From a virus, in IMG/VR virus record IMGVR_UViG_3300042484_002100, positions 1-32,608 of that record: a stretch of 32,608 nt of DNA; one strand, 5' to 3'. A program made the position numbers and the translations under genes. Within the stretch, counting starts at the first letter, position 1. Every line of letters begins with the position of its first letter. The notes under the pieces were generated by a model that was not told the origin of the DNA, ran no database searches, and worked only from the letters and a program-made list of their open reading frames with translations. Of the stretch, positions 26,836 to 32,608 are shown one piece after another.

Positions 26836-27495
26836 TTATGGTGTCTCCCTTTCGAGCTTTGCCAGCGCTTCGTCGTCCCCCGCGTCTCGCCAACCGTGCA
26901 CCCGCTGTGCGGGCAGGCGCCTTTGGTCTGCATAGTAGCGCAGCGCCTCTGCCATGTGCGTCTCTGCCTTGCCTTGAAGTAGCGCCCGCTCCCTGAGCTG
27001 GTGGGCGATGTGCTCGAGGATGTCTGGTCTGTCGAACCGGTAAAGCCCCACGCAAACGAGCGCCGTGGGTGTTCCTCTGGTCCACTCGATGCCGTCATGG
27101 AAGTCCCAGGTCCGTGTGGGCGCTGCTGCGACTCCAACCCAGGAGCCTGGTCGCTCTGGGATTTCGTCAAGCAAGGTGTCGCCGTAAACGACCAGCAGCG
27201 GTCTGTCCCGCTTGAAGTGATCGCTCTCGAAGTATGCGGTCAGCGCGCCGACTGGTCCCCCGCCCCGGTTGTCGCCTATGACCGCGTGCAGCCACGGAGC
27301 TTCGCTGCGCACTCGCTCTCGTTCCTCATATCGAACGATTGCGGTCGTCTCGTAGCCTGCCAGCGTCTGCGCGTGGTAATCCGCGACTGGTCTGCCCGCC
27401 GCTTTGACCAGAAGTTTGTTCCTTCCCCCGAGGCGCGTTGCGCGCCCCGCTGCGAGGATTACTGCCCGGTCCAGGGTCTGCTCTCGTGGCGCCAT
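26836..27495 (-). CDS. Sugar nucleotidyltransferase-like protein
   Basis: The protein has 219 residues. It carries the NTP-transferase signature DRAVILAAGRATRLGGRNKL (9-28) with LLVVYGDTLLDE supplying the metal-binding Asp. Such enzymes activate a sugar phosphate or alditol phosphate with a nucleotide. It lies in a cassette with two glycosyltransferases and would supply their donor. It overlaps the GT2 gene by 37 nt. The start at 27495 has a poor ribosome site, so translation may depend on coupling or a later start. Confidence 0.8.
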   Translation of the reverse strand: MAPREQTLDRAVILAAGRATRLGGRNKLLVKAAGRPVADYHAQTLAGYETTAIVRYEERERVRSEAPWLHAVIGDNRGGGPVGALTAYFESDHFKRDRPLLVVYGDTLLDEIPERPGSWVGVAAAPTRTWDFHDGIEWTRGTPTALVCVGLYRFDRPDILEHIAHQLRERALLQGKAETHMAEALRYYADQRRLPAQRVHGWRDAGDDEALAKLERETP

Positions 27496-28016
27496 GTCGG
27501 GTTGAGCCGGTAGTGCCAGGTGCGTTCCTCGAGGCATGCGAATTTGGCGCCCGCGTCTGCCGCTCTGTTCCAAAGTTTCCAGTCGTATCCCGGTTCCTCG
27601 AGCCATCCGCCGAGGTCGAGGAGCAGCTCGGTTCGAACCAGCGCGTTATGCGAAACGATCGAAAGGTTCCGCAGCGTCTCGCGGTCGTATGGTCTGTTGT
27701 AAAGGTTGAAGGTGTCGTCGCCTTCAACGCTGCAGTAGCTGTAGACGATGTCTGCCCCGGTTGCGTCTGCCTTCGCTGCGAGCGCCGCGAGGTGCTCTGG
27801 CATAAGCAGGTCGTCGTCGTCGAGAATCTGAACCCACGGGGTCGTCGTCGCTGCCACCAAAGCGTTGCGCACTCGGGCTCCCCCGATGCGCTGGTAATCG
27901 ATGCCGACGAGGTGGTCTGCCGGTAGGTGCGTCTGTGCTCGGACCGATTGCATGGCGTCTCGCAAAAGGTCAGCCCGCTCGGGCAGGCTCGCCGTTATGA
28001 CCGTGATCTGGCTCAT
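27459..28016 (-). CDS. GT2-type glycosyltransferase, 185 aa
   Basis: It is a GT-A fold transferase. It opens ITVITASLPERADLLRDAMQ and has the metal-binding ILDDDDLL at 64-71, the segment HNALVRTELLLDLGGWLEEP and the ending DWKLWNRAADAGAKFACLEE. At 185 residues it is short, so it is probably only the catalytic domain. The acceptor is unknown. The start overlaps the stop of the GT4 gene (ATGA). Confidence 0.85.
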   Translation of the reverse strand: MSQITVITASLPERADLLRDAMQSVRAQTHLPADHLVGIDYQRIGGARVRNALVAATTTPWVQILDDDDLLMPEHLAALAAKADATGADIVYSYCSVEGDDTFNLYNRPYDRETLRNLSIVSHNALVRTELLLDLGGWLEEPGYDWKLWNRAADAGAKFACLEERTWHYRLNPTWRHESRPWTGQ

Positions 28017-29230
28017 CGCTTTCCCCCCTTCAATGCTGCGCGCCTGGTGTCCCGCCGCTGCTCCCGGTTGAGCGGTGGCGTCAGGCGCTGCTCCAAGTCT
28101 GCCAAAATAGGCAGCCAGTGGCTCTCGAAAATGGTTCCGCTGTCGTACTGCTCCGCGAATTTGCGGGCGCTCTGCGCTCGCCCCTGGTCCCCGTTGGAGG
28201 CGTAGGAAGCCTCAAGCGCCGCCACGATCGAGTCGACCCTCGGGGCGCTGAACCATGAAGCCATGCCTTCGTCCCACTCGGGTTGCCCTTCAACGAGCCA
28301 GCCGCTCCCCGCGTCTGTGAGCTCGGGTTGCGCTGTCCAGTTATTTGTGATGACCGGGAGCCCGCAGCTCTGCGCTTCGATAACGGGTATCCCGAATCCT
28401 TCCCCTCTGCTGGGTGAAAGTAAAACGCTCCCCATGCGATAAACCTGGGGCATTTCCTCTGTTGGAATTCCTGCGCGGTACTGGTATTGCGGAACGATTC
28501 GCACCCGGTCCAGCGGGCAGTTCGTTGCCTTCAGCAGCCTGATAATATTCACGCCGCTTGCCAGCCCCATGCTCTCCGTGTGCAGGTAAAGCCAGGCGTC
28601 GCTGTGGCGTTGCGCAAAGGCTCCCCATGCCTGCAGCAATTCCCCCCAGCTCTTGCGCGGTGGCAGCCCTTTGTTTGCCGCGTTGACGACCGTCACGTGC
28701 ACGCCGCTTTCGGGGATGCCGAGGTTGCGTCTGAAGTTTGGTCCCTCTGGTGAAAAGAGGCGCGTGTTGATTGCGTGCGGGGCGTAGTGGACATCCTTCA
28801 GCCCCTCTGCCTCGAGGCGCGCCTTGCCGAATTTGGACATGGCGATCGGAATCCGTGGGCTCTTTCCTTCCTTGAACCACTGCGCCACCGGTTCCGGGCA
28901 GGGATCGTGATCGATCGGCACCCATGCTGCGAGCTTGCAGTCATCCCAGAGGGGTCCCTTGATGGTCCAAACGTCGTAGAGGGTGATCCCCCAGCCCTGC
29001 TCTTGCACGTAGTTGCGAATGTGGGCGCCTGCGATGTCATTGCTCCAGCCGTCGTATCCCTGTGGCAATACTGGGATTCCGTTCCAATCGAGAACCGATC
29101 CGGCGAGCCCGTAGTTTGCGACGACCGCCACATCGTGTCCCTGTGCCTTGAGGCGTGGCGCGAGCTCTGCCACCTGTGTGCCGTATCCCGTTCCGGTCCA
29201 CGGTGCATTGCTGAAAATTGCGAGCTTCAT
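28013..29230 (-). CDS. GT4-type glycosyltransferase, 405 aa
   Basis: It is a GT-B fold transferase. The N-terminal domain opens MKLAIFSNAPWTGTGYGTQV, and the donor domain has PSRGEGFGIPVIEAQSCGLP (273-292) with the EX7E pair. GGAAGGGGGAACAC precedes the start at 29230, and an ATG 12 codons upstream is less good. It lies just after the capsid gene and its hairpin. Transfer of sugar to a virion protein or to host envelope polymer is possible. Confidence 0.9.
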   Translation of the reverse strand: MKLAIFSNAPWTGTGYGTQVAELAPRLKAQGHDVAVVANYGLAGSVLDWNGIPVLPQGYDGWSNDIAGAHIRNYVQEQGWGITLYDVWTIKGPLWDDCKLAAWVPIDHDPCPEPVAQWFKEGKSPRIPIAMSKFGKARLEAEGLKDVHYAPHAINTRLFSPEGPNFRRNLGIPESGVHVTVVNAANKGLPPRKSWGELLQAWGAFAQRHSDAWLYLHTESMGLASGVNIIRLLKATNCPLDRVRIVPQYQYRAGIPTEEMPQVYRMGSVLLSPSRGEGFGIPVIEAQSCGLPVITNNWTAQPELTDAGSGWLVEGQPEWDEGMASWFSAPRVDSIVAALEASYASNGDQGRAQSARKFAEQYDSGTIFESHWLPILADLEQRLTPPLNREQRRDTRRAALKGGKR

Positions 29231-29263
29231 GTGTTCCCCCTTCCTCTTTCCCCCGGTCGTCTC

Positions 29264-29313
29264 CACCCAGGGGCGAGAGCCCCTGGGTGAATCCGTCGCG
29301 CCCTATCGGGCGC
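29264..29313 (-). terminator. Two hairpins between the capsid and glycosyltransferase genes
   Basis: On the minus strand comes first GCGCCC-GATA-GGGCGC (29313-29298), then the perfect 11-bp stem CACCCAGGGGC/GCCCCTGGGTG with loop TCTC (29289-29264). No T-run follows. It probably stabilises or partly terminates the capsid transcript so that capsid exceeds downstream products. The 89-nt gap holds no gene. Confidence 0.55.
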
Positions 29314-29319
29314 TGTTCA

Positions 29320-30504
29320 TCAGCTGTTCGCGCTGACGAGAACGCGGACCGCGTTCGTGTCGAGCAGGTTGCCGTCGACGCGGTAAAGCGTGCGCAGCGC
29401 GACCTGGTCGGTCTCGAAGTAGCGATCACTGGAACGTGCCACGTTGATCGATCCAACTTCGCGCACGATGTAGGACGGTCCGTGAAGGACCGCAACCGAC
29501 TTCGATGCGCTGCCGGCGGCAGCGAGGTTCACGTTCTCGAGGAAGCGGTAGCCCGCGATCCTGTCTGAACCTGGACCGTCAATGCCCGGCTGGAAGATGA
29601 ATTGACCCGTGGTGTCCTGGAACTTGCGAATCTTTGCGACTGCCGACGTCGACGCAAACACGACCGTGTCCTGGTTGCGATATGAAGGCTCGAGCGCGTA
29701 GATCAACGTCAAGATATCCGGAGCGTTGAAGAAAGCCGAACCCGTCGCCGTCGAAAGCGCGCCAGCGGTTGTTGCCGCAGTCACGAATCCGGTTGGCTGC
29801 ACGGTGCCGGTTCCCAGCGTGAACGCTGAGCCAGCTACGTAGGCGATCTGTCGACCGGCTGCGCGACCCACATATTCCTCGATCGGGAATGCGGCATCAG
29901 CAGCAAGCTCCGAGCTCAGAAGGGTCAAGCTTGCCAGCTTGTAGGCGCCCAGGGTCACGCTTCCGATCGTTGGATCGGCAGCGGTGATCGTGCCGCCTTC
30001 AGCCACCCATGCCGCGCTCTGATTTGCGGTCACGCGTGGAACGACGATGTCCTCACCGTTCGTGGTGCGGAGCTTGCGCGCCACATCGTAAACCGGTGCG
30101 ACGCTCGTCAGGTACTCGACGACGAAGTCAGCGAAGCCCTTTCGAACGGTTGCGTCGCCCTTAACGAGCGCGCGCAGTGCGATCTGTGCATCGCGCTTCT
30201 CGCCCGAGGCGATTGCGCGAAGCTCGGACGCAGCGTCCGTGTCGGTCTTGGCGATTTCGTGCGCCTTGACTTCGTACTTTGCGCGGAGTGAGTCGACGCG
30301 GGTTGCGCGCTCCTCAGCTTCGCTGATCTGCTGTGCCTTTGCGTCCTTGTCGGACATCGCGCCCATGATCTTGTCAAAGTCGACATTCTCCTCGGCGGTC
30401 AGCTCTCGCTTCTCATCCTGTGCGCGGGTGAGAAGTTCCTTCGCTCGCTCCCAGTCGGAAGCGCGCGACTCGAGCAGTCCCTTGACTACTTTATCGGTTG
30501 CCAT
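29320..30504 (-). CDS. Major capsid protein, HK97 fold
   Basis: The protein has 394 residues. The first 100 or so are charged and helical (delta-like scaffold: KELLTRAQDEKRELTAEENV, then DKIMGAMSDKDAKAQQISEA). The core has FVVEYLTSVAPVYDVARKLR, IVVPRVTANQSAAWVAEGG, SSELAADAAFPIEEYVGRAA and LRTLYRVDGNLLDTNAVRVL, all family-typical. The N-terminal part is probably removed by the protease encoded upstream. AAAGGAACACAAAC gives a strong start. Confidence 0.95.
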   Translation of the reverse strand: MATDKVVKGLLESRASDWERAKELLTRAQDEKRELTAEENVDFDKIMGAMSDKDAKAQQISEAEERATRVDSLRAKYEVKAHEIAKTDTDAASELRAIASGEKRDAQIALRALVKGDATVRKGFADFVVEYLTSVAPVYDVARKLRTTNGEDIVVPRVTANQSAAWVAEGGTITAADPTIGSVTLGAYKLASLTLLSSELAADAAFPIEEYVGRAAGRQIAYVAGSAFTLGTGTVQPTGFVTAATTAGALSTATGSAFFNAPDILTLIYALEPSYRNQDTVVFASTSAVAKIRKFQDTTGQFIFQPGIDGPGSDRIAGYRFLENVNLAAAGSASKSVAVLHGPSYIVREVGSINVARSSDRYFETDQVALRTLYRVDGNLLDTNAVRVLVSANS

Positions 30505-30603: not shown

Positions 30604-32211
30604 TTAACGCTTGGCTCTCATGAGCCGAAGCTGAAGCTCGCGGATCGATGCTGGAACCTCGACCTGTTCCATCGCCACGCTTTCGCTTGGCTCTGGCTCG
30701 GGCTCTGGCTCCGCGATCGCCCCGTGTGCTCTTTCAATAATAGCGCGCAATAGGCGCAGGTTGTCTACGTCTGTGGTTCCGTTCATTAATGAATCGATGG
30801 CGTCCCGCAGCGCGCCTGGCTCCGTGTCCATTCGCTCTGCCAAAGCTCGAACCGCTCCAAGCCCGACGGTTGACGGGTAGGCGGGTTGCATGCCGGTGAG
30901 GATCGAGCACTCGACGAGGCGGCAGTTGAGCAATTCGCGGGTCGTCCCGTCTGCGCTCCACTGGTCCCCCTTTGCTGGAATGCTAAAGCCGAAGCTGGCG
31001 CCGAAGCTGGCGCCGTCCCGCTTCAAGTTTGCCGCGAGGTCTGCCGCGTAGGTGACGTCTGGGTTGAGCTGAACCTGTGCCTTGAGCCCGCGCTCATCCT
31101 CTTGCAGAGTCAGCGTGCCGGTCTTTGTCGTCCCGAGGAACAGGGACGGATTGTGATCCTGGTATGCCTTCACTTCCCAGGTGCCCTGTTGCGTCGCTGC
31201 GATCGACTTCGAGAAAGCGCCGCGCTTGATGATTTCGGTGAAGCCCAGCGCGGGGCTCGATGGTTCGTCAAATAGGGCGATGTAGCCCGTGTAGGTGAAG
31301 CCGTCGTCACTTGCCGCCATTGATCCGGTTGTCGCCCTGTACTCGATTGCCATGCTCTTTCCCTTTCGTTGCGGTTGCGCCGCTGCGCGCTCTGCCGGCG
31401 CTTCCTCGCCTTCGATGATTCTAGTCGCCCATTGTAGGACTTTGTCTGCTCCGTCTGCGCGGGTGGGGTCGACGCCCCAGAGGTATGCCGCCACCGCGCC
31501 CGCTCCCGGGAAGCCTTCCGCCTGTGGGTCGCTGTTGTCTGGGTTGCCTTCCCAGTCGCCCCGGTGTCTGGCAATCCAGGCGCGCAGACGAAGCACTTTC
31601 TCCGTGTCTGCCTTGCCGTCTGCGAGCTGGCGCGCTTCGCGCACGGTTGCCGGTTGGAGCCCGTCTCCCGCCTTGCCTTCGCTGTGGTATTCCAGCCCCT
31701 TCGCTGCTGCCGCGCTGACGTATGCGGGCACGTCAACGATCGCGCGCTGGTCTGCTGGTGCCTGTTCCTCTGGTGCGCTTTCCGCTTGGTCGTCGCCTTC
31801 GTCGCTGCTGGTCTCACCGATCCCGTCGCTGACCGCCTGCTCGGGCGTAATCGCTCGGATGCCGAGTTCCTGGTAGGCAGCGCGGGCGCCGGCATCGTTG
31901 TCGATAGCGAGGTCGATTTCCTTGCCTTCCTCGAGGAGCTTCGCCGCCTTATATGCCTTGAATGCGTTTCCTGCGTTTGGTCCCTCTGGGAAGTCCGAGA
32001 GGTGCACTTCCTCGATTCCCGCGATTCCGTGTTCCTGAAGCCAGGCGCGGGTCTCTTGCAGCCGGTCAACGTTGCGCGCGCTGATGATGATGATTTGCGC
32101 GTCTCCGCTCATGACCGCTTCGTTCAGTCGCTCGATGATCGCTGTGTTTGGTGCGTCGCTGCCGTCGCTGGTCGTCAGGGTGCCGTCGACGTCGACGATG
32201 ATGTAGCTCAT
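30604..32211 (-). CDS. HAD-phosphatase / unknown domain / prohead protease fusion, 535 aa
   Basis: Three parts are visible. Residues 1-125 are a HAD-like phosphatase: IIVDVDGTL (Asp7, Asp9), IIISAR at 41-46 and LAIDND at 101-106. Residues 160-267 are a domain (YVSAAAAKGLEYHSEGKAGD, VREARQLADG, AYLWGVDPTRADGADKVLQW) that recalls a region of XkdF-like phage proteins. Residues 287-470 are an HK97-type U35 prohead protease, with His in YQDHNP and Ser in GASFGASFGF. An EPEPEPEP tail follows. An internal ATG at 31353 (Met287), preceded by AAAGGGAAAGAGC, could give a 249-residue protease alone, close to the usual size. Confidence 0.85.
   Translation of the reverse strand: MSYIIVDVDGTLTTSDGSDAPNTAIIERLNEAVMSGDAQIIIISARNVDRLQETRAWLQEHGIAGIEEVHLSDFPEGPNAGNAFKAYKAAKLLEEGKEIDLAIDNDAGARAAYQELGIRAITPEQAVSDGIGETSSDEGDDQAESAPEEQAPADQRAIVDVPAYVSAAAAKGLEYHSEGKAGDGLQPATVREARQLADGKADTEKVLRLRAWIARHRGDWEGNPDNSDPQAEGFPGAGAVAAYLWGVDPTRADGADKVLQWATRIIEGEEAPAERAAAQPQRKGKSMAIEYRATTGSMAASDDGFTYTGYIALFDEPSSPALGFTEIIKRGAFSKSIAATQQGTWEVKAYQDHNPSLFLGTTKTGTLTLQEDERGLKAQVQLNPDVTYAADLAANLKRDGASFGASFGFSIPAKGDQWSADGTTRELLNCRLVECSILTGMQPAYPSTVGLGAVRALAERMDTEPGALRDAIDSLMNGTTDVDNLRLLRAIIERAHGAIAEPEPEPEPSESVAMEQVEVPASIRELQLRLMRAKR
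31353..31368 (-). promoter_or_regulatory. Internal ribosome site for a protease-only product
   Basis: GAAAGGGAAAGAGC precedes the in-frame ATG at 31353-31351, as good as sites before true genes here (for example 19188 and 17998). The product would match the prohead protease domain exactly. Confidence 0.5.
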
Positions 32212-32221
32212 GGATTCCCCT

Positions 32222-32482
32222 TTACTGCCTTATTTCGAGCACTTGGCATACCTGCGTGCCGCTTTGGACTACGCCGTAAAGCACCGAGTCTGCGTCGAGT
32301 CTGATTTCAAGTTGATCGATGTGGTCGCCTTGAATTCCTGTTCCGTGCGTCACCCCTTCGCCGCCAAAGTCGATCTGCGCGAGACCAGCTCCGCCAATGA
32401 TAACCGTGCGCGGTGTGGGCGTCGCCGCGCTGACGACCGTTGCGGTCGTCGCTACGGTCACGCGATAGGCTCGCACTGCCAT
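32222..32482 (-). CDS. Unknown head-module protein, 86 aa
   Basis: A beta-rich protein opening MAVRAYRVTVATTATVVSAA, then a Gly-rich middle (TVIIGGAGLAQIDFGGEGVT) and EIRLDADSVLYGVVQSGTQV. It lies between the portal and the protease, 3 nt after the portal stop. It may be a small head or decoration protein. I do not recognise a family. Its stop is 10 nt before the protease start. Confidence 0.55.
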   Translation of the reverse strand: MAVRAYRVTVATTATVVSAATPTPRTVIIGGAGLAQIDFGGEGVTHGTGIQGDHIDQLEIRLDADSVLYGVVQSGTQVCQVLEIRQ

Positions 32483-32485
32483 CTG

Positions 32486-32608
32486 CTAAATTCCCGCGAT
32501 CTTTCGCGCCTGGTCCAGCGGTACGCCGCTTGCCACCAATTTGTCGAGCACTTCTGCTCGGGCGCGTGAATCTGCGACTGCCATCGATGGCGCTTCGTTG
32601 AGTGGCAT
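32486..32608 (-). CDS. Portal protein, C-terminal end (continues from base 34 across the junction)
   Basis: Read from 32608 it gives MPLNEAPSMAVADSRARAEV and ends ASGVPLDQARKIAGI with TAG. The first 11 residues are the same as those encoded at 34-2, and the rest completes the portal. The helical end is as expected for the family. Confidence 0.9.
   Translation of the reverse strand: MPLNEAPSMAVADSRARAEVLDKLVASGVPLDQARKIAGI
32575..32608. repeat. Right copy of the 34-nt terminal overlap
   Basis: Matches 1-34 with one difference (32576 G against 2 T). See the left copy. Dropping one copy leaves a 32,574-nt circle. Confidence 0.9.

Follow-up and report, generated by a model that had tools for sequence, protein, structure and literature searches.

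Prohead proteases of the HK97 gp4 type are classically free proteins of ~200–250 aa, encoded between the portal and capsid genes. In phage lambda, a single frame of the head module (C/Nu3) gives rise to both a long protein and a nested product made from an internal start, the nested product being the scaffold and the protease lying in the long N-terminal part. Interactions of lambda C, Nu3 and the portal have been described (PMC3224144). Swappable, multi-domain proteins termed polyvalent proteins have also been proposed to enter the host together with phage DNA (Iyer et al. 2017, PMC5512222), and in that paper the term “prohead protease” occurs in the reference list only. Here we report the analysis of a gene from an IMG/VR virus record (IMGVR_UViG_3300042484_002100, 32,608 nucleotides, hereafter the window) in which an HAD phosphatase and a middle domain stand in front of an S78 prohead protease. 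Our overall reading, to which we give a probability of roughly 60%, is that this gene yields two products, the longer of which brings the front module into the prohead as enzyme cargo.

The protease gene lies between the portal gene, whose C-terminal end is in the window, and a capsid gene of HK97 type, in the order portal, small gene, protease, capsid, glycosyltransferase, glycosyltransferase (Table 1). Pontimonas phage phiPsal1 has the same order, with a methyltransferase and some small genes in addition, and its prohead protease (MG835450, AUV61415) also shares the middle domain; where the window has the HAD, the front modules of the phiPsal1 protein comprise an MPY..GCH domain and a HiPIP-like domain rich in Cys. 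The homologous junction of the phiPsal1 gene carries a TTG with the Shine-Dalgarno (SD) sequence GGAG, and its short protease is predicted to start at the TTG in ..GGAGAAGCG TTG AGT... In both genomes two glycosyltransferase genes (GT4 and GT2; 27459-29266 in the window) directly follow the capsid gene. The fusion is already present in public databases as UniProt A0A6J5R419, a “Prohead protease” from an uncultured Caudovirales phage with 50% identity to the HAD and middle domain, with no internal-start or two-product reading in its name or in the literature searched.

Table 1. Features of the fusion gene and its neighbours in the window.
Feature	Position	Strand	Basis
Long ORF, HAD phosphatase-middle domain-S78 prohead protease	30604..32211	-	535 aa, one uninterrupted frame
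SD of long-form start, AAAGGGG	32217..32223	-	Sequence, SD -7.1 kcal/mol
HAD phosphatase domain, residues 1-128	31828..32211	-	Motifs in relatives, AlphaFold model, fold match
Acidic linker, low confidence, residues 129-157	31741..31827	-	pLDDT mostly <60 in 136-157
Middle helical domain, residues about 158-278	31378..31740	-	Common to other phage head proteins
Internal SD-like AAAGGG	31361..31366	-	SD at homologous place conserved in relatives
Putative internal start codon ATG, residue 287	31351..31353	-	Homologous codon ATG/GTG/TTG in 167/178 distinct ORFs
Candidate nested short product, S78 prohead protease, 249 aa (residues 287-535)	30604..31353	-	Profile matches
86-aa gene between portal and protease	32222..32482	-	Same place as phiPsal1_005
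Portal gene C-terminal end, runs off window	32486..32608	-	Sequence; resembles portal end in L003
Major capsid protein, HK97 type	29320..30504	-	PF05065 2.5e-50

The original prediction of an HAD domain, a middle domain and a U35 protease in one 535-residue frame was borne out, as the frame is open and all three domains were recovered. A profile search of the ORF placed Pfam Peptidase_S78 (PF04586) at residues 302-448 with an E-value of 2e-28, and NCBIfam proheadase_HK97 (TIGR01543) scored 70 bits, above its cut-off of 59. His67 and Ser120 of the short form (His353 and Ser406 in full-length numbering), which we take to be the active-site residues of the S78 (former U35) family, are invariant in a four-sequence alignment. 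By profile, and likewise by its position between portal and capsid genes, the C-terminal part is thus a member of the HK97 gp4 type, and initiation at the internal ATG would, as foreseen, give a protease of normal size, 249 aa; the HAD and middle domain set the complete ORF apart from the classical members.

The internal ATG at 31353 is preceded by CGAAAGGGAAAGAGC, with an SD of -4.6 kcal/mol. It had been claimed that this ribosome site is as good as those of true genes, which holds against the capsid gene (-4.9) and the 86-aa gene (-4.3) but not against the long-form start or several other starts in the window, which have stronger SDs. Since the SD of the window is ordinary, and no stronger than under synonymous recoding (p 0.55), the window alone adds little to the predicted start, and the case for it rests on homology. 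Taken by itself, that recoding result would suit the explanation that the long fusion is the sole product and that the start-like codon and SD arose by chance. We regard this explanation as very improbable, given the conservation of codon identity and SD described below.

We read the codon homologous to the internal ATG (the junction codon) in 178 distinct ORFs, allowing any amino acid at the site, and found ATG in 103, GTG in 53 and TTG in 11 (167/178), with four Phe codons and seven ORFs that could not be aligned. The Phe codons (TTT/TTC) belong to one clade (L031/L032/L062/L255), a clear start at the exact place is also missing from L025, L071, L100 and L142, and two of the seven ORFs that could not be aligned (L068 and L115) have an ATG with GGAGG or GAGGAG nearby. 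The choice of codon is more restricted than the amino acid requires: in the non-redundant set, Val at the junction was encoded by GTG in 23/23 cases, against a background of 0.30 in the same genes, and Leu by TTG in 11/11, against a background of 0.16, and the junction alone, among the 33 Val columns of the alignment, uses one codon throughout. The same is seen upstream of the start. AGG is the core of the SD, and in the 65 ORFs with the junction peptide ERFDVKE, Arg is always AGG (65/65; AGG makes up 0.07 of Arg codons in the background) and Val always GTG (65/65), while the Phe, Asp, Lys and Glu codons vary. The peptides ahead of the start differ between groups (RKGKS, RKEKPK, NGEPN, KENNA, DRSISE, DREIVD, ERFD, NEGDE), yet nearly all of them encode AGGAG, GGAG, AGGG or GAGAGG a few bases 5′ of the start.

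Across the ORFs, the mean SD at the junction was -7.0, compared with -4.6 under synonymous recoding (Wilcoxon p 1e-10), a p value that, like others obtained from these related sequences, overstates independence. Without preselection of the site, the junction codon ranked first among all in-frame NTG codons in 29/71 ORFs (3.5 expected) and within the top three in 57/71 (10.4 expected), and a control scan found start-like codons at the HAD-middle linker in 11/40 ORFs versus 33/40 at the junction. On a quick tree of the proteases the state of the junction codon changes at least 14 times. A close relative, L003, encodes the protease directly behind the portal without HAD or middle domain, and has an SD of -8.1 ahead of a Met that matches the internal ATG of the window; L002 shares both the middle domain and this internal ATG with the window. 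This combination of codon and SD is what one would expect of a translation start and would not expect of a protein linker, and comparison across the 178 distinct ORFs thus upholds the proposal of an internal start that would free the protease, a start apparently kept by selection in these phages. As a separate observation, the SD of the long form is on average slightly weaker than the internal one (-6.3 vs -7.2 in 122 HAD ORFs, with a rough choice of start), a difference that would favour the short protease.

The first 128 residues contain the HAD motifs DVDGTL, IISAR, AFKAYK and IDND. Profile matches fall below the Pfam cut-offs (0.003 for the PNKP phosphatase domain), with a PHROG polynucleotide kinase match at 2e-8, and profile searches of the 535-aa ORF found no kinase domain anywhere. 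The AlphaFold model is an HAD Rossmann fold (pLDDT 91-97) with many HAD matches, the best solved fold being the 3′ phosphatase of T4 Pnkp (PDB 5uj0, 1ltq; Z 16.5 over 121 residues, 2.1 A, 20% identity), followed by Nir2 and lipin-type phosphatases at Z of about 14-15. In contrast to T4 Pnkp, the HAD of the window has no accompanying 5′ kinase domain and is fused to a protease. Loss of active-site residues in relatives had been named beforehand as an outcome that would count against the idea; instead, D7, D9, S/T44 (S44 in the window), K85 and D104, comprising the DxD pair and motifs II, III and IV, are kept in 179/179 sequences, and the domain is therefore very probably an active phosphatase. 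With low confidence, we consider a nucleic-acid or nucleotide phosphate the likeliest substrate; that nucleic-acid ends in particular are acted upon is a tentative suggestion.

A different substrate would follow if the HAD were a sugar phosphatase serving capsid glycosylation together with the glycosyltransferases downstream of the capsid gene. The presence of GT4 and GT2 at this place in both the window and phiPsal1 is in keeping with such a role, as is a weak NCBIfam match of the HAD to a capsule-biosynthesis phosphatase. However, among the 84 HAD loci whose downstream sequence extends for 2.6 kb or more, 78 have no relative of these glycosyltransferases, and one is present in 24 of 34 loci without HAD, making this role improbable.

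The search for the same domain order in other phages, suggested at the outset, found it to be common. Over 300 loci were gathered by scans of IMG/VR and of genomes, and domain searches of their open frames identified 154 complete HAD-middle-protease ORFs and 45 complete middle-protease ORFs with other front modules or none recognised; further gathered loci hold proteases without the middle domain. A collection of phage isolates contained no well-matching HAD-protease fusion, its HAD matches being mostly annotated as polynucleotide kinases, and a DNA scan for close relatives with the HAD-middle half alone gave no match, as single-sequence patterns were too strict for a task in which alignment queries worked. 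On the quick protease tree the HAD was gained or lost at least 11 times, while the fusion and the internal start stay; tree neighbours L190, with HAD, and L011 or L012, with the MPY..GCH and Cys-rich module, share the same junction peptide. Other front modules include ferritin (7e-13), HIPIP (0.04, weak), Tudor-like Hva1 and DUF5824.

Several of these modules are worth recording in their own right. The Cys-rich, HiPIP-like sequence RACGNC..C..YYCNAW.P precedes the protease in L012, L010, L011, L051, L085 and others, with a Pfam HIPIP match of 0.04, below the cut-off, in L012, and in Actinomycetia phage DSL-LC01 a gene adjoining a middle-domain gene is annotated as a high potential iron-sulfur protein. 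A ferritin/Dps-like domain lies between the middle domain and the protease in L100:3542-5257, L142:2543-4123 and L025:3381-5666 (Pfam Ferritin 7e-13 in L100 and 1.5e-6 in L025, with L142 judged by eye), and in L025 the middle, HAD, Dps-like and protease domains all occupy one frame.

With a start of its own for the protease, nothing would force the upstream domains to stay in frame, and stop codons should frequently have broken up an incidental fusion. Nearly every locus with a front module nevertheless keeps it in frame with the protease, and splits were seen in just two cases, L017/L194 and L057. We rejected these as natural separate genes, as they look like local deletions that remove the junction: the apparent deletions in two metagenome contigs, L017:2696-2777 and L057:1986-2221, end at the same protease codon (GYAA) and take out the internal start, as either a real variant or an assembly artefact. 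The rarity and deletion-like character of the splits weigh against the view that the HAD-middle half is an ordinary cytosolic enzyme whose fusion is incidental and removed by the protease. The HAD forms a domain complete in itself and set off by a flexible linker, and T4 Pnkp-like phosphatases normally work on nucleic acids in the cell. Both points lend this view some credit; we judge it unlikely. Retention of both the fusion and the inner start across these sequences instead suggests that both products are needed.

The middle domain is modelled as compact and helical (pLDDT 93). It had no match to a solved structure by profile, and by fold the best Foldseek E-value was about 1 and VIA gave Z ≤3.9, which is no proof of a new fold. 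The domain is widespread in phages, often within head-module proteins, and stands at the front of a protease-capsid polyprotein in Roseobacter phage CRP-821; the HAD-middle model also gave fold matches to viral proteins that bear the names XkdF, portal or Dps, where the matching part could be either domain. The CRP-821 frame (L318:2986-5910), 974 aa long and annotated as a capsid protein, comprises the middle domain, a protease-like part and the capsid, and its codons 324 (MEIRHIVS) and 537 (MTEEVKKD) are start-like ATGs, each with an SD, that could free a protease and a capsid protein in a phage available as an isolate. We infer that the middle domain is a head-directed adaptor.

Its near-constant place beside the protease while other modules change, together with its occurrence in other head-module proteins, would also be expected if the N-terminal modules regulate the protease, either as a tethered or delayed form or through recruitment to the portal or capsid by the middle domain, with HAD activity secondary. 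The exchange of unrelated modules (HAD, HiPIP-like, ferritin-like, Tudor-like) points to enzyme functions over simple steric control, as does the strict conservation of the HAD catalytic residues, and we therefore hold regulation to be rather unlikely, if somewhat less so than an incidental cytosolic enzyme.

Our computations support the fusion, the intact active site, selection for the internal start and the swapping of front modules. On the proposed model, for which two nested products from one gene are, on the comparative sequence data, highly probable, ribosomes starting at 32211 would make the 535-aa HAD-middle-protease chain and those starting at the internal ATG a free S78 prohead protease of 249 aa, which probably serves as the main maturation protease. 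The long form would add a phosphatase, or in related phages other enzyme-like or metal-binding modules. Both proteins are expected to accumulate, and the protease part would most likely bring the long form into the prohead together with the free protease. Within the assembling head the front module would be cargo, perhaps cut free or ejected with the DNA, and the enzyme could act in the prohead, during maturation or after ejection, presumably on a nucleic-acid or nucleotide phosphate. Whether the long form is prohead cargo we see as an even question, and “cargo” describes it better than the scaffold-like role first envisaged: at its N terminus the capsid protein itself carries a region of ~115 residues ahead of the Phage_capsid domain, an arrangement seen in phages that lack a separate scaffold, and no scaffold role need therefore be invoked.

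The pairing of a swapped front enzyme with a constant inner start suggests a built-in route for attaching enzymes to the protease during capsid assembly. More speculatively, and with slightly less than even confidence, the protease gene may be a general loading platform, in which a constant middle-protease core with its own start receives exchangeable Pnkp-like, HiPIP-like, ferritin/Dps-like or Tudor-like modules and a measured share of proteases carries the cargo into the capsid and possibly the next host. If so, this would be a common and unrecognised way for phages to load enzymes on the maturation protease, perhaps inside heads, in which one gene and two starts set the ratio, and such a natural cargo tag for capsids could be of practical use. 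On a practical level, users should be aware that gene callers give the long protein only, so that the actual protease would go unnoticed. Codon choice compared across metagenomes can lend support to a start codon buried within a fusion gene, and the approach could also be applied to other fused head proteins.

In-frame nested head genes and S78 proteases are both known already. Like lambda C/Nu3, the ORF of the window combines a single frame with an internal start codon and SD that are conserved, but here it is the protease that is predicted to be nested, and the additional part is an enzyme module. The swappable modules recall polyvalent proteins, and for the system described here, known from its genes, injection is a proposal. 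Searches of the open-licence literature found neither an internal start described for proteases of this kind nor any fusion of HAD or Dps to them. What is new, as judged against that literature, is the reversed layout, in which a nested protease lies behind exchangeable enzyme modules.
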